Assembly (NCBI GenBank): GCA_034521575.1
Contig: JAXHMJ010000005.1
Coordinates: 124,001-188,000, forward strand
DNA from: a candidate division KSB1 bacterium
Lineage (GTDB): Bacteria; Zhuqueibacterota; Zhuqueibacteria; Residuimicrobiales; Krinioviventaceae
DNA: 64,000 bases
Direction of reading: 5' to 3'
A program made the translations under genes and the position numbers. This document shows positions 4,901 through 37,592 of this stretch, piece by piece (within the stretch, counting starts at the first letter, position 1; every line of letters starts with the position of its first letter). Under the pieces are notes generated by a model. It did not search any database, was not told where the DNA came from, and was given only the letters and a program-made list of their open reading frames with translations.

Positions 4901-7900
4901 TGTCGATACTGGCACCGGACACGAAATCCCGGTAATCCTGGCTGTTATGATTCAGATTGATTTTGTAGGAAAAATAATCATTTCGAAGATCCAGATCACC
5001 GTTGGCGTTCATATCCTCGGTATCGGGATACCGGCCCTTGGCGTCGTTCTGATTGTTTTCCGTGCCGTTGGCTTGTTTCGGCGTCTTGCCCAAATCTCTG
5101 CCCTGAGGCTCGTAACTCCAATTGTCATAACTATACGGCTCCCCGGGATCCTTGACACCGTTCTGATTCAAATCCCAGAAATCGCCGCCGGCCTGCTGGG
5201 CAATGGGACTATCATCACTCATCCCGTCCAGACCGATATCCTCGCCGTCATCCAGCAGTCCGTTTCGGATCCCGTTCACCAGCTGGTCTTCGGTGTCAAA
5301 CTCGCGGTTGGGAATAATATCCTCGGATATCTGCCCCATTTCAATATGCAGGTTCGCAGTCGTACTCGGCATATTTTTTATCCAGACTTCAATAAACTTG
5401 GTTTCCGTCTGGTTGGCCATACCCGAAGACAATGCTTTCTGAATACCGTTCCAGGACGAATCCGGAGCCTCGGCGGTTTCGCTGGGATGGAATTCCATTT
5501 TCAAAATATTGGTACGCTGGGCCACATTGGCATTCAAATCCTTGTTGGGCTTGATATACTGTATGGGATACTGTTCATACGGATTCCAATAATAAAGCCG
5601 ACCGCGGTTGCTCAAATCGCGTTCTTCGTAATCATATTTGCCTTTCGGCGGCGATGCATAACTCCAGCCGCTTCGAATGATCTGCAGCGGGGTTTCGCGT
5701 TTCGACGCTTCAAAATCATCAATATAGGCGACACCATCGTGATCGCCGGTCTGATCATTGTTACGGGTATTCGGATTCGGGATAATCTGGGCGATTTCAC
5801 CCTCGAATGTCAAAGTCGACGGTGCGCGCGTGTTTACAAACGGGATAAAATTCGCCATCTTTGTCAAAAAGAACGGCTCCAGCTGCAGCATGGTATTCAA
5901 ATCCCAGATAAAATTACGCATGGGGCCCTTGCCCACCCGGATTTTTTGATCCATGGTGGATTCGTTCAGATACATTATCGTGGCGCCGATAAAAGAATCA
6001 TCCCACAGGCCGTACTCCGCTCTGGCCCCAATATGGTGGTCTTGTCCACCTGAAACATTTTATTGCTTTCATAAGTGATTTCCAGATTGGCGTTCGCTGC
6101 TGTGGCCTGTTCATTCAGAATGCGCAGGGTACCGGTAAAATAGTCAATGGTATAATCGACATTGCGGGTGAGAGGCCGGCCGTTCAGCGTCACTTCCTCT
6201 GATTCTTCAATCACGTTCATCCCCAGATTGTATTCCGAGCTCTTGGTTTCCGACTTTATTTCAATGTAAAAGTCAGTCTGCTCATTGATCACATCCTGAA
6301 CCGTGGTGTCATAGATAGCAGGAGCCAGTTTACCCTCAAGCATTTCGCGCAATTCAGGATCACCCGGATCAAACGGCCGCAAATGCGGGAACATGACCTC
6401 GCCGCGGGCATAGTTGATAATATTGGGATTGTTGTCGACAATATCATCAGGCTGATCCTCACCGCTCAAATTGGACTTGTCCAGGCCAAACGCGGTAAGC
6501 CAGGATATTTTTTTGCCTTTATACGTGACGGTTTCCTGAGGATCGCCGGCGGACGGTTTGTAATAGATATGTATTTCAAACCCGTCCTGGGGTATATTGC
6601 GTCCGCCCAGACTGTAAACGTTTTTCCATTCCAGCGGCCAGGTGGTATCACTGGGACGCGGATTTTTGGTCCGCAGCAGCCGCAGCTGAATCACCCGATC
6701 GATCTCTGAATTAAAATTAATATTTCCGCGTATTCGTCCGGAGCTGTCTTTATAGGCAACCGCCAATACCTGGCCTTCACGCAGTGACTGGTTCATGCGG
6801 ATATAACCCAGCTGATCCTGGATATAGTACTCGTCCTTTTCCAGGCGACGAAAATAACCGCGGTAATGTTCTTCATCAACGATGGACGTGTCGCCTTCAA
6901 TGATCACCATCTGATCCTGCTTGTCTTCAGGCGGCACCCAGGCCCAGCCGCGCCGGGAATCCGGGTATTTTTGCTGATAATTGGGTTCTGACAGATAAAC
7001 CTCGATACGCGCGACACCGCGATCCGGATCTACAATAAAAGCGCCGTCTTCATTTCGATTCAAATATTGTTCTCGATAATAATCACTGAGAAAAAAATAG
7101 GTTCCGGTTTTATACCGGGAAATATCAATCTGTTTGGTTTCATCCGATGAACCGCCACTGATGGATAATTTTTTCTTTTCGCCTTTTTCCTGACTGATCA
7201 CGGTGGTCAGACTCAACGGTCCAATTTTGGCGTCGGTTTTGATCCCAAACAAGCCGCTGCTCTTCATACTGGCGCGTACAAACCGGGTCCCGGGCAGGCT
7301 GATCGAGATATTACCGGCTTCGATCGATTTGATAATCTCGTCTTCATAGCCTTCATAATGCAGACCGATGCGGTTTTCAAAGTCAAAGGCACGCTCCGAA
7401 TCCTGATCGATATCAATTGTCACTTTGTCCCCGACATGCCCGGACACATTGAATCTCTGAGTCTGCTCCATCTTGAACGAATTGTTAGAGCCGCGGTTCA
7501 TGGCTGTCCGCACCTGGCTGCGGCTCTCATTTCGAAATCCGCCGTTGATATCAATATTTCCGGTCACATCCAGACCAACATTGCCGCCGCCGAAAATGCG
7601 CTGAAACGTCTTGCTCTTAATTTCCACCGGGATATCAATGCGAATGGCGCCGCCGCTTCCGTCCCGGCGTTCGTCTGTAAGACGACTGAGGGTGGTCTGC
7701 ACCAGTTGCTCATGGAAATATCGCTCCCGGCGCTCCCGGACATACTGCTCCAACGTCATATAACGTGGAATGCGCACCGGAACCTCACCCAGCGTTTCCT
7801 GAAAATTGATATTTTCACCCGTCGAATCAATCTCCACCGTCCGCTTTAAACTACTGAGGTTGTTACTCAGATACGGTGATCGCAAACCATCCTTATGCAG

Positions 7901-25816: not shown

Positions 25817-27624
25817 TTACCAATATTTGCTTACGTTGAATCGCATCCAGCGGCCCGGTGTGGGCACACCGGGGAGATCCCGGTAATGGGTATCCGTGAC
25901 ATTTTCCGCTGACAGGGCCAGACGCCAGCTGCCCAGCGTACGGTACAGCTGCAGATTCATCAGCATATAGCCATTGTCATAATCCGGCTGTTTCCAGTGC
26001 ACCGCCATGCCGGCATGCATATTTCTCCGGAACGCGACATCCGTGTACAGCCGGATATGATGGCGCAAATAGCGCAGCGCATATTTTGATTCAAAGCCGA
26101 ATAAGGTTTTATTCGCATACAAATGTATACCGCGCAGTGACAGCACCGTTAATGACAAGACAGGCTCGTTCAGACGCGCCTCCCATTCGAGTCCGGTAAA
26201 CCGGGTTTTGGAATGATTGATCACCATCCACGGGTCCTGCGGCTGCGCGCGCACCCAGTCGATGATATTGGCGCCGGTTCTGCGGAACAGGCTCACCTGC
26301 AGCATGCGGTTTTCAGCGTACATGCGCGTACCCAGTTCCAGGGTTGATGAAGCCGACGCATCAAGATCGGGATTGCCGATATTGCCCGGACTGGCATAGT
26401 ACAATTCGGTAAAAGACGGCATACGAAAGGCACGTCCCCAGGAAGCGAAAATCCGGGCATGCGGCGTCAGGCGGTACGCGGCGCTCAGCCCCGGCCACAC
26501 CTGCCATCCCCACTGATCATAATAATGCGAAAACGTCGAGCTGGTAAAGGACAACTGTTCACTCCATTGCACCCGGTAACTCAAACTGGCGCCGTAGGTT
26601 TGCCGGATATGGTCGCCCAGACTGCTGCTGGTTACCAATTCCGCGCGCCCCTGCAGCTTCACAGTGGCAAGTCCGCCGGGCGCCTGGACGTGAACAGGCA
26701 ATGAAAATCCATAGCTTTTGCTGGTATGCCGGTTCCGGTACCAGTCCGGACGCTGCCGGTCGAGCAAAAAATCATCATGATGCTGACGGTAATAAACGAG
26801 CGGATTCGCGCGTCCGCCGGAACAGTAGTGCTCAAACGCAGGCTGGACAGCCAGGCGCGGGTTTGTTCATACTGATCCGGGAATTGCTGCGAATAAAAAC
26901 TGTTGGCGCCGAATTGTTTGTCGGATACACCGCTGTACAGGGATAACCGGGTGTCTCCCTGCTTGAAAGTCGATTTCCAGGACACATTGAGGCACTCATA
27001 ATCCGTATTGCGGGTAAAGCCGTCGGATTGCTCATAGTTGGCCGACAGGCTGTGACGGATGCGGCCGGTCTGCGTACGCAGCGCCATTGATGAACCCACG
27101 AGTCCGTGCTCGCCGCCGCGCACCTGAACCGAACCGCCGGGTTTTGTCTCCCGGGTCACAATATGCACAACACCGGATACAGCATCTGCGCCGTAAACAT
27201 CCGAACCGGGTCCGTGCAGCACTTCAATACGCTGGATATCCTGAATCGACACCGGCAGATTCAAATTGTGATGTCCGGTTTGCGGATCATTCACCGGCAC
27301 ACCGTCCAGCAGAATCAGAGTTTCGGAAAACGAGCCGCCGCGCACCGACACATCGGTCTGAATGCCGCTGCCGCGTTTTTGCAGCATCACCCCGGGCACC
27401 GCCTGCAGCAAATTCGTCAGCGACCGGGCATTCAGCCGCTCGATTTCGGCGCGCTGCAGCACCGTTACCGTGCGCGCGGTTTGAGTAAGCGGCCCCGGAT
27501 AGCGGTCCACAGTGACCACCACCGGATCAACCTGATGATCCGGAAGCCACTGCCCGACGGCTGGAGCAAGCGGTAGAAGCAGGGTCAAACATATGAAAAA
27601 CGATGAATCGATAATCTTTATCAT
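25817..27624 (-). CDS. TonB-dependent outer-membrane receptor, BtuB-like size, one frameshift
   Basis: Ligand-gated outer-membrane importer. It has a signal peptide, a TonB-box-like DPVVVTV near residue 33, a plug domain (TNLLQAVPGVMLQKRG, VSVRGGSFSETLILLDGVP, IEVLHGPGSDVYGADA) and barrel strands to a C-terminal aromatic residue (FNVSKYW). The frames break near 26810: one base restores NPLVYYRQHHDDFLLDRQRP. Full length is about 600 residues, the size of vitamin B12 or small siderophore receptors. Uptake of cobalamin would fit the cobalamin sensor at 16 kb, but the ligand is unproven and no cobalamin riboswitch is seen upstream. A palindromic operator array lies 184 bp upstream. Confidence 0.87.
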
Positions 27625-27807
27625 GATAAAAAATTTTATGAATCTGATTCAGGACAATCCAGGGAGGCCGTAGAAATCAGGCACCCGATTGTTATCATTT
27701 CAATTCAATGGAAAATAACAATTATAGCGAGAAAATCAACTGTTTTATCAGCTTACGCGAGGTACAACAGCGGTCTTGTATAGAGTCACCCGGCAAACCA
27801 GAGCAAA

Positions 27808-27878
27808 TTTATACGTATAAAAGCATCCATCGATTACGTAATGATTACGTAATCGTTTAGTAAATTTATACGTATAAA
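27808..27878 (-). promoter_or_regulatory. Symmetric array of four TACGTA-core palindromes upstream of the TonB receptor
   Basis: Two identical 14-bp palindromes TTTATACGTATAAA (27808-27821 and 27865-27878) flank two identical ATTACGTAAT palindromes (27833-27842 and 27844-27853). Centres are at 27814.5, 27837.5, 27848.5 and 27871.5, spaced 23, 11 and 23 bp, so the array is mirror-symmetric about 27843 and all sites lie roughly on one helix face. This is most likely a multi-site operator for a dimeric or tetrameric regulator. The nearest gene pointing away is the TonB receptor, 184 bp downstream on the minus strand. Confidence 0.6.
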
Positions 27879-27918
27879 TATGCTGATTCCCTGGTTGCGC
27901 CAGGAAAAGTTTCAGGCT

Positions 27919-28032
27919 TTAGAATGCCGTCGAGACACAGCGGGTCTCATTGGCATCCCTCTGATCAATGTCCACTAAAATATAGCAATTCTTAGGTGAG
28001 GGCGGAAAATCATCGGATAATGGACAACTCAT
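27919..28032 (-). CDS. Possible 37-residue small protein or gene remnant
   Basis: An ATG at 28032 opens 37 codons with protein-like composition (MSCPLSDDFPPSPKNCYILV, then DIDQRDANETRCVSTAF) and three Cys, ending 41 bp before the palindrome array. No clear ribosome-binding site is seen and no family is recognised. It could be the tail of a lost gene. It is included because the stretch between the TonB receptor and the terminator at 28088 holds nothing else coding. Confidence 0.25.
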   Translation of the reverse strand: MSCPLSDDFPPSPKNCYILVDIDQRDANETRCVSTAF

Positions 28033-28087
28033 TTTATTTGATCGTTTTTTCCGATTTCCCTTGAACCCAAACACTTTAGAATATAAA

Positions 28088-28120
28088 AACCTCCCGAAGA
28101 TTTGGAATCTTCAGGAGGTT
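28088..28120 (-). terminator. Rho-independent terminator after the FIMAH-like gene
   Basis: A 14-bp stem (AACCTCCTGAAGAT on the minus strand, one G-T wobble) with a 5-base loop, followed on the minus strand by a short T-rich tail. It lies 24 bp after the stop of the 28145-29428 gene and would close the 31397-28145 transcript. Confidence 0.75.
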
Positions 28121-28144
28121 CATAACGTGTTTAAAATTAGATTA

Positions 28145-29428
28145 TTACTCCATCCTCTCAATCAAAGCTTCCGCATTGAAATGCAATAAATTATAAGCCT
28201 CTTCGTTCACATGTTTCACCCTTTGCGCCTCCAGCTGATTTAGAAAGGCTTTGAGTTGATTTATTGCCTGTTTAATATTTCTTTTATCCAGCTGCTTTTG
28301 TGCATGTTTCAGTTTCTTTGTCAAGCTGTTATAAATACCCTTATTATCGATCCAGCCTTTCTGATAGGAATTGTCAATATCCTTTGACATCATATCTACC
28401 AGAGAAGAATTAGATTGGACCTCGGTCAAGTCTGCATGTCCGATATTTTCAAAATGAGTAGCATCCGACTCTTTGGGATCCTCAGGGAAAAAATAAAGAC
28501 TGTCGCCTAACATGAAAATTTTTGATTCAGCATCAGGAATATCAGAAGTTTGGAATCTTAATCGCTGTTTCAATTTAGCGGTATTTTTATTATAAATATA
28601 AATATTCCCACCATCTTGGAAAACCATATTCCCATAAGGTGTTAAACATTTTTCATAAGGTGGTATCCCTACTGGTAATATTATCTGACTTGAGGCTGTC
28701 TTGTTAGCAGGATCACATAAAACCAGATGTCCCTTATCATCCTTTTCTGAAAGGTAACCGATAAATGCATAACCATTTTGGGAATCAATGAAATATGGAT
28801 TGTATTTCATTTGTACATATTCATATCCTTCAATTGTAATTCTTTCATTAATTATTTCACCTGTTAATGTACTTCTACTTTTAAAATATACTCCATCTTT
28901 TAAATCTATTAAATAATATATTTCACTCCCCTCTCTTGAAATAAGACTTTTCGTAGCTTTGAAGTAATAACAATTGGTATCAATAATCGAATATGTATTT
29001 TTATCTATTAATATATCTGTGCTTTCCAAAGTATGAAATTCCTTACTGATTATCTTTGCACCAAATTTTACATACGATAAAAATATATGATTATCAGGTG
29101 GGACTGTGTGGTTTTGATTTTTCAGTTCAATCTTGCCTAAATAAGATAGTGTGTCTGTTGAATTTTTCTGTAGATCATATATGCATATTTGAGACTCCGG
29201 TATTGATTTAAACATTATCTTATTAATTTCAGATAGTATTGCAGGCGTTCCAACTTCAGATAAGATTAATTTTTTTTCACCTGATTGCAGATTAATGCCG
29301 TATATATTATGAACTATAAATCCTTGTTTGTTTTTTCTTAGGTCATTTTTATAATAATATGATTGACCATATGTAAAATTTATTAATATTATAGTACTTA
29401 TTAATGAAATACTAATTGCCTTTTTCAT
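28145..29428 (-). CDS. Secreted protein with C-terminal FIMAH-like helical domain
   Basis: 427 residues with a signal peptide ending near NFTYGQ. The middle (about 25-340) is rich in short beta strands with repeated loops and may be a propeller, but no family is certain. The last about 75 residues (GWIDNKGIYNSLTKKL, AQKQLDKRNIKQAINQL, AFLNQLEAQRVKHV) match the helical FIMAH-type repeat found at the ends of many exported proteins. Base composition is markedly AT-richer than its neighbours. It follows the SLT-domain gene by 28 bp on the same strand and ends before a strong terminator, so the two form a transcription unit. An inhibitor or partner role for the SLT protein is only a guess. Confidence 0.6.
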   Translation of the reverse strand: MKKAISISLISTIILINFTYGQSYYYKNDLRKNKQGFIVHNIYGINLQSGEKKLILSEVGTPAILSEINKIMFKSIPESQICIYDLQKNSTDTLSYLGKIELKNQNHTVPPDNHIFLSYVKFGAKIISKEFHTLESTDILIDKNTYSIIDTNCYYFKATKSLISREGSEIYYLIDLKDGVYFKSRSTLTGEIINERITIEGYEYVQMKYNPYFIDSQNGYAFIGYLSEKDDKGHLVLCDPANKTASSQIILPVGIPPYEKCLTPYGNMVFQDGGNIYIYNKNTAKLKQRLRFQTSDIPDAESKIFMLGDSLYFFPEDPKESDATHFENIGHADLTEVQSNSSLVDMMSKDIDNSYQKGWIDNKGIYNSLTKKLKHAQKQLDKRNIKQAINQLKAFLNQLEAQRVKHVNEEAYNLLHFNAEALIERME

Positions 29429-29456: not shown

Positions 29457-31397
29457 TTATTGATAATTATTTATGTATCTACCTACGTTAGCATCAACAT
29501 TTGGATTATATTCTCTTATGCCATTATTCATCATCGCAGGATTGACTTCCCAATAACCAATAGGGTTATTTCGAGTAGGTTCAATCCAATTCCAATATCT
29601 GGCATTACCACCGCCATTATATCTTGCATATGCTTCGCTGTCGATCATACTTTGTCTCGTTTGACCTTCTGCAACAATATCCAATCCCCCAAGTGTTTCT
29701 AAAAGATTTTCTGCAGCATTTCTTCTGGTATTATAGTAATTGATTCCATAAGTTAGATTTGCAGTCCATTCCCACAAAAGATCAGTAGTTATTATATGCC
29801 ATCGATCATCAATCTGGCACATACCCCACCCATGTTCATCTGCATCACTACATAAAGGCAATCCTTCATTAGGCTCAGCATAGTCCTCCGTATCAAATTG
29901 GTCAAAACCTGATGTCTCTATCTTCAGCATGGTTTTCTCACCTGTATCCAATCCTTCTGTCACATCTTCATCATCCGGATTCTCGCCCCGAATATAATGA
30001 ATAAGTGTATCTGTATAGGTTTCCCCCTCAAACTCTGCGGAAACACTAACCGTTGCTTCACCGCCAATGATCCGGGTGTTGCTTAAATCAAGTTCCCATT
30101 CAGATATCAGAGTCGATTTATGCGGCACCTTGGGAACAAATGCCGCTTCTCCCAGATGTTCTTCCGTATCAGACCCCGATGGATAGTCATAGGAAATCTC
30201 ATATGTCCATTCAGCCACACAAAGCGCGCTCTGATCACAGCCCTCCAATTCGGCTTTAAATTCCAATATCGGCATGGCCGGTTCTGGTTGTATATAAGAG
30301 ACAGAGTCCTCCGGAGCGTTGATCTCGAGCGTTACCGCTTCATCAAGGGTAATACTTGCGCTGTCGCATAATTCCGGTTGATCCTGTCCCATGACCTTAA
30401 TGTTTGCCTGTATTGTTGAATCCGGCAGGCTGCTGTTCACTGTATACGCGATTTTTCCGTCAATAAAATCCTGATAGGGAATATCTATCAATTCTGTTGT
30501 CAAACCTGATCGGGCCAGGTGCAACAGGCCTCCATACTGTTGTCCGGTCGGATCAAGGGTCACATTAAACGGTTCGTCATCCGCCAGATCTATTTCTTTA
30601 CCTTCAGCATCCACAGCCTGAAGTGATACAAAAGAAGTATCCTGACAACCCAGGGTATCCGGTAATACCCGCACATTTAGTTGTTTTTCCGGCGGAACAA
30701 CCCCCAAATGAAACGTCAACCGTTCCCACTGCCAGGTATTGAGCCACCAGATACTTCCCGGCAGTAATTTGACATCCCAGCCGGTGATCTGTCCCAAAGA
30801 GTCGTAACAGGTGTAAAAATGACAATTGTAAAACGGTTTTAACGCCCGGCCGCGTTCATAAGTGGAATAGTCACAGGTATCCGCTTCTGCCGTATAGGAC
30901 AGTTGAACAAACTCTCCCTCCTCAACAGGGCCGAGGTCCCATTGTTGCGGTTTTCCGGTATAAAAGTAATAGTCGTAATCGATATAGTCACCGGATGACC
31001 AGATCGGCGCACAATTGTTCCCGGCATAATAGACCCGATAATCAAATGAAAAGTCGAATCGATCTTTGAGTGTGTCAGAAACCATGCTGTCTCGATCTAC
31101 AAAATATAAATTTAATGTTTCTTCCGGATGCATCCGCCACACCATGCTCAGCAGGTCGGCATGTTGATAGGACACAATCAGATTTCCCGTTTTGGGTATC
31201 ACCAGAGTACTGGGTGTCACGGATAGTTTGTGATTGGACTGCACGTTTGTACCCTTTAAGTTCGTGAATGAATCGGGAAGCATTTTTCCATGAAACACAT
31301 CAATCTCTACGCTGTCACGCAATGTGACCTGCGCCGACACCCAAGTATAACCAATCACGAGGCATAAAAACAAGACAAATATATTTCTCTTCATCAT
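29457..31397 (-). CDS. Secreted multidomain protein ending in an SLT/lysozyme-like domain
   Basis: 646 residues with a signal peptide (MMKRNIFVLFLCLVIGYTWVSA). Residues about 20-230 form a module nearly identical to the N-terminus of the broken gene at 33641-37010. A middle region of Ig-like strands follows (LDSTLVIGG-type segments, DTLIHYIRGENP). The C-terminal about 170 residues read as a lytic transglycosylase fold: KIETSGFDQFD with candidate catalytic Glu, HGWGMCQIDD matching the GxMQ motif, WTANLTYGINYY, and ARYNGGGNARYW matching the AYNxG motif. Predicted role is cleavage of peptidoglycan or a related glycan outside the cell. The fold assignment rests on motifs only. The FIMAH-like gene follows by 28 bp. 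No sorting domain is attached. Confidence 0.65.
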   Translation of the reverse strand: MMKRNIFVLFLCLVIGYTWVSAQVTLRDSVEIDVFHGKMLPDSFTNLKGTNVQSNHKLSVTPSTLVIPKTGNLIVSYQHADLLSMVWRMHPEETLNLYFVDRDSMVSDTLKDRFDFSFDYRVYYAGNNCAPIWSSGDYIDYDYYFYTGKPQQWDLGPVEEGEFVQLSYTAEADTCDYSTYERGRALKPFYNCHFYTCYDSLGQITGWDVKLLPGSIWWLNTWQWERLTFHLGVVPPEKQLNVRVLPDTLGCQDTSFVSLQAVDAEGKEIDLADDEPFNVTLDPTGQQYGGLLHLARSGLTTELIDIPYQDFIDGKIAYTVNSSLPDSTIQANIKVMGQDQPELCDSASITLDEAVTLEINAPEDSVSYIQPEPAMPILEFKAELEGCDQSALCVAEWTYEISYDYPSGSDTEEHLGEAAFVPKVPHKSTLISEWELDLSNTRIIGGEATVSVSAEFEGETYTDTLIHYIRGENPDDEDVTEGLDTGEKTMLKIETSGFDQFDTEDYAEPNEGLPLCSDADEHGWGMCQIDDRWHIITTDLLWEWTANLTYGINYYNTRRNAAENLLETLGGLDIVAEGQTRQSMIDSEAYARYNGGGNARYWNWIEPTRNNPIGYWEVNPAMMNNGIREYNPNVDANVGRYINNYQ

Positions 31398-33999: not shown

Positions 34000-35309
34000 C
34001 AGTAACGTCCGGTTAGGTTTTTGCACGTAAGTAATTTCGTCGATTTTTTCTATGAGATTTTCTACGATTTTTCTTGTCGGAATCTCGCACTTCATTTTGA
34101 ATTTGAATACGGAGTTCTCGCACTCTTTCGATGTTAACTTTTTCGTTATAATTTTCATGACAATAGATTGCCAGCAGCAAATATGTAATGAGGCCGCCGA
34201 GAATTTGAACCATAAGTCCGTACTGACTTCGAGCTATGAGATGATAGACTTTGAGATGGCGTTTCCACCAAGCGAAGAAATTTTCAATTTCCCAACGAAG
34301 TTTGTATGCCTGAGCAACATCTTCTGCAGAGAGGTCATAACGATTTGTCGCGATCCAGTATTTTACATTGCCGATTTTATAACCGACAAGTCGTATCGAC
34401 TTTTTTGTTTGATTGGTGCCCGGCGTCCCCAATAAAACTATAGCATCATAAAAAACAATGCTTTCTGGTTTTATGTCATGTGCATAAAGACATATTTTTC
34501 TCGTCGATGCTTTGATGCGGCAGAAAAATTGACGACCGTCCTCCTGCCATTGGTCAAAGCGTTTATGGCATTGATAGCCCCGATCAAGAACGCCGGACTG
34601 GTCAGAAGAGAGTATTTGATCGACAAATGGTCGTTCACCGGCTAAACCGCCTGTGAGATATAGTTTTGTTGGAATGGACCGATTGATATCAAAACCGAGA
34701 TGAACTTTTGCCTTTTTAGAGCCGTTTCTATAATCAGCCCAAGTCATTGAAAGAACAGCATCAATCAAAGAACCATCGATGGCAACAAGCTTCCCCAAAT
34801 GTTCAAATTGATTTGGGATAGTGGCCGCAGCTTTGGCTTGAAGTTCATTAAAAACAACAGCTAGTTGTTCGAGGCCGCGATTGTTGATAGCCTCAAAAAA
34901 GCTACTTTTTTTGATTCCATCTTTCGGGGCAATATGCTCCCGAGCAAATGTATCTTCTTGAAGAACCTGGACAAGATGAGTCCCTGATTCATGCTCTTCA
35001 AGATGATAAAACACGAGGGCATTGAGTTGATCTTCAAATGTCATTTGCAGAGGTCGATCTCCTCGTGAAACTAATGGTGGTACCTTGGACAAGATAGCCT
35101 TGATCGGTTCCATTAGTCTTTTGAATGTTTTAGATTTTTGTCGAGGCTTAAACTTTTTAATTTACGTCGCATTTCCATAACACCTTATATTTATTAATGT
35201 TATGAAAGTCGACTTTGAAATTTTTGACGTAATGTCAAGTGTTTTTTTGTGTTATGTCATATTTTTTTGTAGAATCTGAGCGTTGCAATTACCTAACCGG
35301 ACGTTACTG
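34000..35309 (-). mobile_element. Complete IS4-family insertion sequence, 1310 bp
   Basis: Bounded by 19-bp perfect inverted repeats CAGTAACGTCCGGTTAGGT (34000-34018, and reverse complement at 35291-35309), with a further TTGCA matched after two mismatched bases. It carries one intact transposase gene whose stop codon lies in the left repeat. It is flanked by a 9-bp direct repeat, ATTCTCGTC. Ends, transposase and duplication are intact, so insertion is probably recent and the element may be active. It interrupts the metalloprotease gene. Confidence 0.92.
34013..35113 (-). CDS. IS4-family DDE transposase
   Basis: 366 residues, complete. Catalytic Asp113 in AIDGSLID, Asp177 in VLDRGYQ, and the full YREK signature of IS4 transposases: Tyr260-x2-Arg263-x3-Glu267-x6-Lys274 in YKLRWEIENFFAWWK. 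The C-terminal tail is Arg/Lys-rich (KKNRRKSHRKNRR). The stop TAA falls inside the left terminal repeat. It catalyses cut-and-paste movement of the surrounding 1310-bp element. Confidence 0.95.
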   Translation of the reverse strand: MEPIKAILSKVPPLVSRGDRPLQMTFEDQLNALVFYHLEEHESGTHLVQVLQEDTFAREHIAPKDGIKKSSFFEAINNRGLEQLAVVFNELQAKAAATIPNQFEHLGKLVAIDGSLIDAVLSMTWADYRNGSKKAKVHLGFDINRSIPTKLYLTGGLAGERPFVDQILSSDQSGVLDRGYQCHKRFDQWQEDGRQFFCRIKASTRKICLYAHDIKPESIVFYDAIVLLGTPGTNQTKKSIRLVGYKIGNVKYWIATNRYDLSAEDVAQAYKLRWEIENFFAWWKRHLKVYHLIARSQYGLMVQILGGLITYLLLAIYCHENYNEKVNIERVRELRIQIQNEVRDSDKKNRRKSHRKNRRNYLRAKT

Positions 35310-35318: not shown

Positions 35319-36320
35319 CCTTTTTTAAATAGTATCTAATACTCTGTAAATCTTTATATATGTTTTTAGTCCAACTCACATGAGTCGCTCCATCGCTCAA
35401 AGCACGATTTATTTCGGGATCATCCAATTGATTTCCTTTCAAAATGCCATCTCTTTCGACATTCACTATAATACCCGCTTGCGCCCAGGCAATTTTTGCC
35501 CGTTTTATTGAAGCATTGACATCACTGTCTTTAGAAGCCGGGCCCCGGCCATCGCTATGGGTTTTTACCCAGTTCTCATCACCACTTCGGAACCTAAACA
35601 CCGCACCCGAACTGGAATCCAAAAAGGGTTCACTGGGTACACCGGGTCTGAACAATTCACCCTGTTCCTTGCCTTCCCAATCGAATTCATCATTGCCCTC
35701 ACCGATAAGATTCCCATCTTTATCATAATACCCGTCATCCCAATATGCCTCCTGAAGCACATAGCAGCGCATATTCAGAATCCCGGAACACTTTACCTCA
35801 GCCGTATCACAGATCGTTTCTCCGGAGGCGGACTGATAACTCACCATCACCACACCGCCCGGATAACATTGATGCGTGCGGTCATTTTGGGATTCATCAT
35901 AAACCGGACCTGCGCTGAATCGAGATTGGTGCCCATATCCGTCATCTGTCTGAGTCTCAATCACATCATCCAGAGCAGGTGCCACCAGCAACTGCGACTC
36001 TGAATTGAAAATCCCGCTATTCACATCCGTTTCTTCCAGAGTTATTTCGTGAGCAGGATCTTGATAGGGCGTGTGATCCCATTTCAAACCAAAATCAGTC
36101 TTGATTTTGACATGTAAGGTATCTTTTTCGTCCGGGATAAAATTTTTTCTTTATCCTGGACTTGTACATAGAAACGCCTCGAATCTTTTGAAATAAAATG
36201 ATCCGAAACGCTTCCCGAATGATCATACGCATGATCCCATAATGATATCTGAAGAGAATCCGTTTCAGCTTGCTGTGAATCCAAAAAGCAGATTTCCGTC
36301 TCACTTGACTCAACCCCCAC

Positions 36321-37150
36321 ATGAAACGTCAATCGCTCCCACCGCCAGGTATTGAGCCACCAAATACTTCCCGGCAGAAATTTAACATCCCAGCCGGTGA
36401 TCTGTCCCAAAGAGTCGTAACAGGTGTAAAAATGACAATTGTAAAACGGTTTTAACGCCCGACCGCGTTCATAAGTGGAATAGTCACAGGTATCCGCTTC
36501 CGCCGTATAGGACAGTTGAACAAACTCTCCCTCTTTAACAGGGCCGAGGTCCCATTGTTGCGGTTTTCCGGTATAAAAGTAATAGTCGTAATCGATATAG
36601 TCACCGGATGACCAGATCGGCGCACAATTGTTCCCGGCATAATAGACCCGATAATCAAATGAAAAGTCGAATCGATCTTTGAGTGTGTCAGAAACCATGC
36701 TGTCTCTATCTACAAAATATAAATTTAAAGTTTCTTCCGGATGCATCCGCCACACCATGCTCAGCAGGTCGGCATGTTGATAGGACACAATCAGATTTCC
36801 CGTTTTGGGTATCACCAGAGTACTGGGTGTCACGGATAGTTTGTGATTGGACTGCACGTTTGTACCCTTTAAGTTCGTGAATGAATCGGGAAGCATTTTT
36901 CCATGAAACACATCAATCTCTACGCTGTCGCGCAATGTGACCTGCGCCGACACCCAAGTATAACCAATCACGAGGCATAAAAACAAGATAAATATATTTC
37001 TCTTCATCATATCCCCTCTCTATTTTTGAAACATAATTTTCTGTTTATGGATGTGCCGGATTTTGCCGGATTCTTCCTGTACAATCATTTTAAGAAAATA
37101 AACGCCACTGGACACGCTCAGACCTTTGGAATTGGTTCCATCCCAATGTA
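36321..37150 (-). repeat. Segmental duplication copy 2 (830 bp), partner of 30708-31537
   Basis: Counterpart of copy 1. It has no net length change against it between the two ends. This copy retains the full sorting domain upstream of the shared-N-terminus gene, so it is probably the more ancestral arrangement. Confidence 0.8.
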
Positions 37151-37460: not shown

Positions 37461-37592
37461 GAAACAGAGTCAAGTAAAATTGAATAAAATTCAGAAAAAA
37501 TAACAATGGTTTGCATTTTTTTGCATAGCCGTCGTTGAGGGGGGTAACCATGCCCGGATTGTACGTAATCAAATACAGTGTTTATACTTATA
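37461..37592. other. Non-coding gap upstream of the sorting-domain fragment
   Basis: AT-rich sequence with no gene recognised. Together with 37151-37460 it is the 442-bp segment missing from duplication copy 1. Confidence 0.4.

Follow-up and report, generated by a model that had tools for sequence, protein, structure and literature searches.

The question raised by this locus is what reads a group of four TACGTA palindromes lying upstream of a TonB-dependent receptor gene, and whether the receptor is what the group serves. The window, that is, the whole 64,000-nucleotide stretch analysed here, corresponds to C5:124001-188000 in a genome of 5.26 Mb in five contigs. When the sequence was re-read, the palindromes were found at 27808-27878 exactly as spaced in the first-pass annotation. 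Two outer copies of TTTATACGTATAAA (27808-27821 and 27865-27878) flank two inner copies of ATTACGTAAT (27833-27842 and 27844-27853), all identified by motif search and none assigned a strand. Their centres, at 27814.5, 27837.5, 27848.5 and 27871.5, give spacings of 23, 11 and 23 bp about a symmetry point at 27843, and the mirror symmetry continues a little past the outermost palindromes, with 41-nt arms that are 80% complementary. The accompanying claim that such an arrangement is unlikely by chance was also borne out, as the TTTATACGTATAAA 14-mer, allowing up to two mismatches, occurs three times in the window against an expectation of 0.20. The 71-bp element is made of two inverted, back-to-back units of a bipartite operator: unit 1 (27808-27842, minus strand) combines TTTATACGTATAAA and ATTACGTAAT, with cores at 27812-27817 and 27835-27840, and unit 2 (27844-27878, plus strand, inverted with respect to unit 1) combines ATTACGTAAT and TTTATACGTATAAA, with cores at 27846-27851 and 27869-27874. 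In both, 17 nucleotides (N17) separate the cores, which are 23 bp apart from centre to centre, and the two spacers are unrelated to each other.

A scan of the genome, as proposed in the first-pass annotation, revealed that the motif is strongly enriched beyond the window. Pairs of the form TACGTA-N1..31-TACGTA number 42 (17 in the reversed control), and in 32 of these the spacing is exactly N17; the number of N17 pairs expected per genome is 0.02 when derived from the density of unpaired TACGTA (taken from 368 kb) or about 0.09 by a Markov estimate. Conservation beyond the core is palindromic around each TACGTA (TNTACGTANA, often TTTATACGTATAAA) and does not reach the middle of the spacer, a combination of symmetric conservation and variable spacer that would be the expected imprint of a pair of protein dimers kept at a constant distance from each other. 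Places with a single mismatch are few (about a dozen, against the 32 copies with both cores intact). One of them, TACGTA-N17-TACTTA, is a degenerate second unit in the window (37562-37590, plus strand), located within a 124-bp repeat that is also present at C2:637058 (82% identity). Doubled units are found at three places, and since the distance from unit to unit varies among them (11 bp in the window, 17 bp at C3:616286 and 21 bp at C2:1146912), the true unit is the 23-bp pair, two of which are combined in the 23-11-23 pattern of the window as one arrangement among others. An integron or cassette array was considered at C2:1146912 and discarded, as the small genes there are packed too tightly for attC sites. 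Likewise, a -35/-10 promoter with a 17-bp spacer was rejected, given that both elements are palindromic and that copies occur in coding sequence.

Is the window copy then an operator of the receptor? The receptor gene (Plug domain, E=2.6e-25) occupies 25817-27624 on the minus strand, in two overlapping frames, 26659-27624 and 25817-26767. It is frameshifted in this assembly, its closest relatives having open frames of about 610-680 aa, and this reflects either a pseudogene or an assembly error. The four-palindrome site lies 183 nt upstream of the receptor start codon. An intrinsic terminator-like hairpin (28087-28121, minus strand; 0.6 expected by chance) at the 3' end of the gene at 28145-29428 closes this upstream gene and, therefore, the site falls within the roughly 460 bp bound to hold the receptor promoter. 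A simple promoter scan of 27500-28300 returned no more matches than shuffled sequences, the promoter was not placed with confidence, and an Rfam search found no riboswitch in the window. This location, in the only region able to contain the receptor promoter (from the hairpin to the start at 27624), together with a centre resembling a Zur box, would fit an operator dedicated to the receptor, or a central Fur/Zur-type box (CGTAATGATTACG) for metal uptake. The likeness to Fur/Zur boxes resides in the central CGTAAT-G-ATTACG, read as a 7-1-7 repeat. However, the first-pass annotation had itself named a lack of conservation ahead of orthologous receptors as part of what would refute its claim, and TACGTA was absent from the 500 bp upstream of all ten related receptors (30-44% identity), so that no conserved receptor operator is apparent at this degree of relatedness; furthermore, most of the other copies in the genome do not lie near receptor promoters. 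A Fur/Zur regulon was discarded because the central 23-mer is unique in the genome at up to three mismatches. Nor would a box explain the outer palindromes and the pairing of inner and outer palindromes at 23 bp, which is a genome-wide rule. With the receptor gene broken in addition, a receptor-dedicated or metal-responsive operator is very unlikely. Of the original proposal, what stands is a DNA-binding site for several dimers whose motif is enriched elsewhere, and what is not supported is its dedication to the receptor; the interest of the locus lies in the genome-wide set to which it belongs.

That set has two parts. Seven of the 32 exact N17 units are clustered at C5:2318-2338 kb, and the other 25, at 22 loci and including the two of the window, are scattered. 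The cluster (C5:2318222-2337867) comprises about nine DUF6364 genes or modules in 20 kb, close to the origin inferred from GC skew, and the exact N17 unit stands directly ahead of the antitoxin start in seven of these approximately nine genes. In Pfam terms, the small protein of the modules is DUF6364 (PF19891, E=1.1e-12) and its partner is PIN_3 (PF13470). Most of the clustered antitoxin genes are open, but of the PIN genes no more than about three approach full length. Several of the toxin genes break off at one common point, after about residue 37 (VKRRLK). An integron or cassette array was also contemplated for the 2318-kb region and abandoned, the cluster consisting of repeated DUF6364-PIN modules. 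A further DUF6364 antitoxin gene, frameshifted, is found at C5:1082937-1083180, and an N18 TACGTA pair with one mismatch lies upstream of it.

The association between this site and the DUF6364-PIN genes extends to other genomes. Relatives each have between zero and three TACGTA pairs of any spacing, and most of their N16 and N17 pairs directly precede a small gene that has a PIN-domain gene downstream. Conversely, among the relatives' loci fetched by a family search, nearly all the full-length DUF6364 ones carry a TACGTA pair with N16-N18 and zero to two mismatches, located 17-28 nt upstream of where the DUF6364 match begins; in distant family members, the pair is absent. A pattern scan blind to genes, run over about 85,000 named genomes with the query TACGTA-N13-TTTATACGTATAAA, yielded 14 places, five of which directly precede DUF6364 and PIN genes (in Mucilaginibacter, Saprospiraceae (two), Ignavibacteriae and Euzebyella). 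The 17-28 nt placement of N16-N18 pairs ahead of DUF6364 genes therefore recurs in unrelated Bacteroidota and Ignavibacteria. The unit thus has the sequence and geometry of a presumably autoregulatory operator of DUF6364-PIN, VapBC-like modules, and DUF6364, an uncharacterised antitoxin family for which a literature search by name found no paper, gains a concrete predicted operator. The window site resembles the module sites in having TACGTA palindromes with centres 22-24 bp apart, and it shares their outer sequence TTTATACGTATAAA; such modules are present in the same genome. It differs from them in being doubled and inverted, in lacking adjacent toxin-antitoxin genes and in not standing 17-28 nt before a DUF6364 start, the nearest start being that of the receptor.

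With regard to the scattered units, neither the window site nor any of the other sites examined had a DUF6364 gene or remnant beside it in a profile search. Judging from open reading frames and Pfam matches at the loci fetched, at least six of these orphan units are inside ordinary genes with recognisable domains, the hosts being SNF2, peptidase C25, HlyD, a secreted protein with a FlgD_ig-like tail, kynureninase and GH2, and for this reason orphan units are not simple promoters. The others fall in spacers, some of which are long and rich in repeats, and their distance from gene starts varies from copy to copy. The abundance of pairs is peculiar to this genome, as it was seen in none of 40 relatives and is unique among 82 genomes of the phylum. 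The same genome holds 13 DUF6364 matches, compared with zero to four in each of the 40 relatives, so that orphan units abound only in the genome richest in DUF6364. That module amplification and orphan sites go together is a correlation drawn from a single genome.

The scatter itself bears on the suggestion, also made in the first-pass annotation, of an origin-like or centromere-like site. The GC-skew origin maps to C5:2.24-2.38 Mb, about 2.1 Mb from the window, and the terminus near C2:0.7 Mb; the copies are dispersed, and the suggestion was dropped. More generally, sites for chromosome organisation (origin, centromere, nucleoid occlusion or terminus macrodomain) could be dispersed and partly located in coding sequence, as these are, and copies are indeed few in C5:0.8-2.3 Mb. 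However, this depletion affects one arm only, and family-level relatives are devoid of the sites. MatP and Noc are conserved systems, and a function of their kind was rejected on these grounds; we consider chromosome organisation extremely improbable.

The repeat-rich setting of several copies invites a different reading, in which the units would be relics or by-products of small interspersed repeats spreading in non-coding islands and would have no current binding function. Indeed, four units (C2:213569, C2:331945, C2:226214 and C5:320908) have a common spacer sequence, and the degenerate unit at 37562 in the window shares its 124-bp repeat with C2:637058. Nevertheless, most copies have unrelated spacers and flanks, some lie within ordinary genes, and the proportion of copies with both cores intact to one-mismatch places is unlike that expected from decay, which makes this reading quite unlikely. 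REP/BIME elements are similar in being dispersed palindromes, sometimes found as inverted pairs in spacers. They were ruled out because a conserved hairpin-forming sequence was not encountered: as read from the sequence, only a 6-bp stem is possible between the two cores, and the copies also occur in genes and have, for the most part, unrelated spacers and flanks. A repeat of roughly 400 bp was also observed, with more than 60 pieces in several tandem clusters at C2:213-420 kb and C2:983 kb; a few of its copies carry a paired TACGTA unit.

A more serious competitor holds that a different, lineage-specific protein, such as a global or nucleoid-associated regulator, binds the orphan units, and that the toxin-antitoxin modules share the site by ancestry or convergence. 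The orphan units are more numerous than the modules and are located in genes as well as in spacers, and N17 TACGTA pairs without an adjacent DUF6364 gene exist elsewhere, both in a contig of Cloacimonadota and in tandem arrays of a Spirochaetia genome. In contrast, no candidate gene for such a protein is at hand, and the DUF6364 modules account for both the sequence and the spacing without invoking a new protein; this alternative is regarded as rather unlikely. In the Cloacimonadota contig, at locus positions 6877-6969, two N17 pairs directly precede an 86-aa ORF that looks HTH-like by eye. In the Spirochaetia bacterium SUG108, TTTCATACGTATGAAA-type palindromes are repeated in tandem with a period of 22-23 bp in about ten intergenic arrays, some of them between convergent genes, and DUF6364 was beside none of the arrays checked.

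From the motif, its enrichment and its position upstream of DUF6364 genes, all directly observed, we infer both a binder and its binding, and favour, with somewhat better than even confidence, the proposal that the orphan units are bound in trans by the clustered DUF6364 antitoxins or by antitoxin-toxin complexes. The regulator that had been left nameless would thereby acquire a concrete candidate. Each palindrome would be occupied by a small antitoxin dimer, probably of the ribbon-helix-helix (RHH) type, and two dimers would be held at a set distance by contacts made either by the PIN toxin or by the antitoxin itself, giving the 23-bp spacing (about 2.2 helical turns). Since most antitoxin genes are intact and most toxin genes truncated, free antitoxin may be available and could reach the orphan units. 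In the window, the 71-bp element ahead of the receptor gene would be loaded with four dimers, with receptor repression, a decoy role or silence as possible outcomes. Several observations speak against this proposal: no DUF6364 gene stands beside the orphan sites examined, some copies fall in ordinary genes, the intergenic ones keep no constant distance to any gene, and modules and orphan sites are both expanded in a single genome. FitAB and VapBC bind their operators as hetero-octamers that carry two DNA-binding domains (PMC3384007). The resemblance of the DUF6364 modules to these systems lies on the protein side, in their PIN toxins and in a predicted operator-binding complex of this two-domain kind. 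In these modules, the PIN_3 assignment is clear, and the probable RHH nature of DUF6364 is suggested by weak profile matches (CopG, E=0.08-0.18; RelB/ParD, E=9e-4; CcdA, E=0.05-0.09), while the AlphaFold model of DUF6364 is of low confidence (pLDDT 63). With this model, Foldseek gave no significant match, and searches of solved structures and folds produced only weak CopG-like ones; no significant match to the FitA and VapB models was obtained.

Binding of an antitoxin away from its own operon has parallels. HipB sites are an instance of an antitoxin operator motif found outside the toxin-antitoxin operon. Similarly, the operator motif of MqsA occurs at chromosomal places away from its operon. 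This antitoxin regulates other genes (PMC4803016). These cases involve other protein families, and in the present genome it is the motif that was observed. A broader scenario, which we put forward tentatively and hold to be doubtful, is that amplification near the origin has left a toxin-antitoxin family with mostly broken toxins but intact antitoxins, and that this family now serves as a DNA-binding system of the whole chromosome. The orphan double-palindrome sites, about 25 in number, some in genes and with the window copy as a doubled, four-dimer version, might then act as decoys setting the antitoxin level, as roadblocks or as regulatory sites. In any case, this is a genome in which a DUF6364-type operator has spread far past the toxin-antitoxin genes, and it makes testable whether antitoxins can turn into genome-wide DNA-binding proteins or orphan operators serve as decoys tuning toxin-antitoxin levels.

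Two additional observations were made along the way. In the window, near-identical genes for secreted proteins at 29457-31397 and 36084-37010, the second of them truncated, represent a local duplication, and an ORF read by eye as transposase-like (34013-35113) lies between the two copies. Elsewhere in the genome, another double palindrome, TACGTAC-N4-GTACGTA (N6 between the cores), is present in six copies, far above chance, at C2:105732, C3:253289, C3:508042, C5:1554805, C5:1559533 and C5:2446505.
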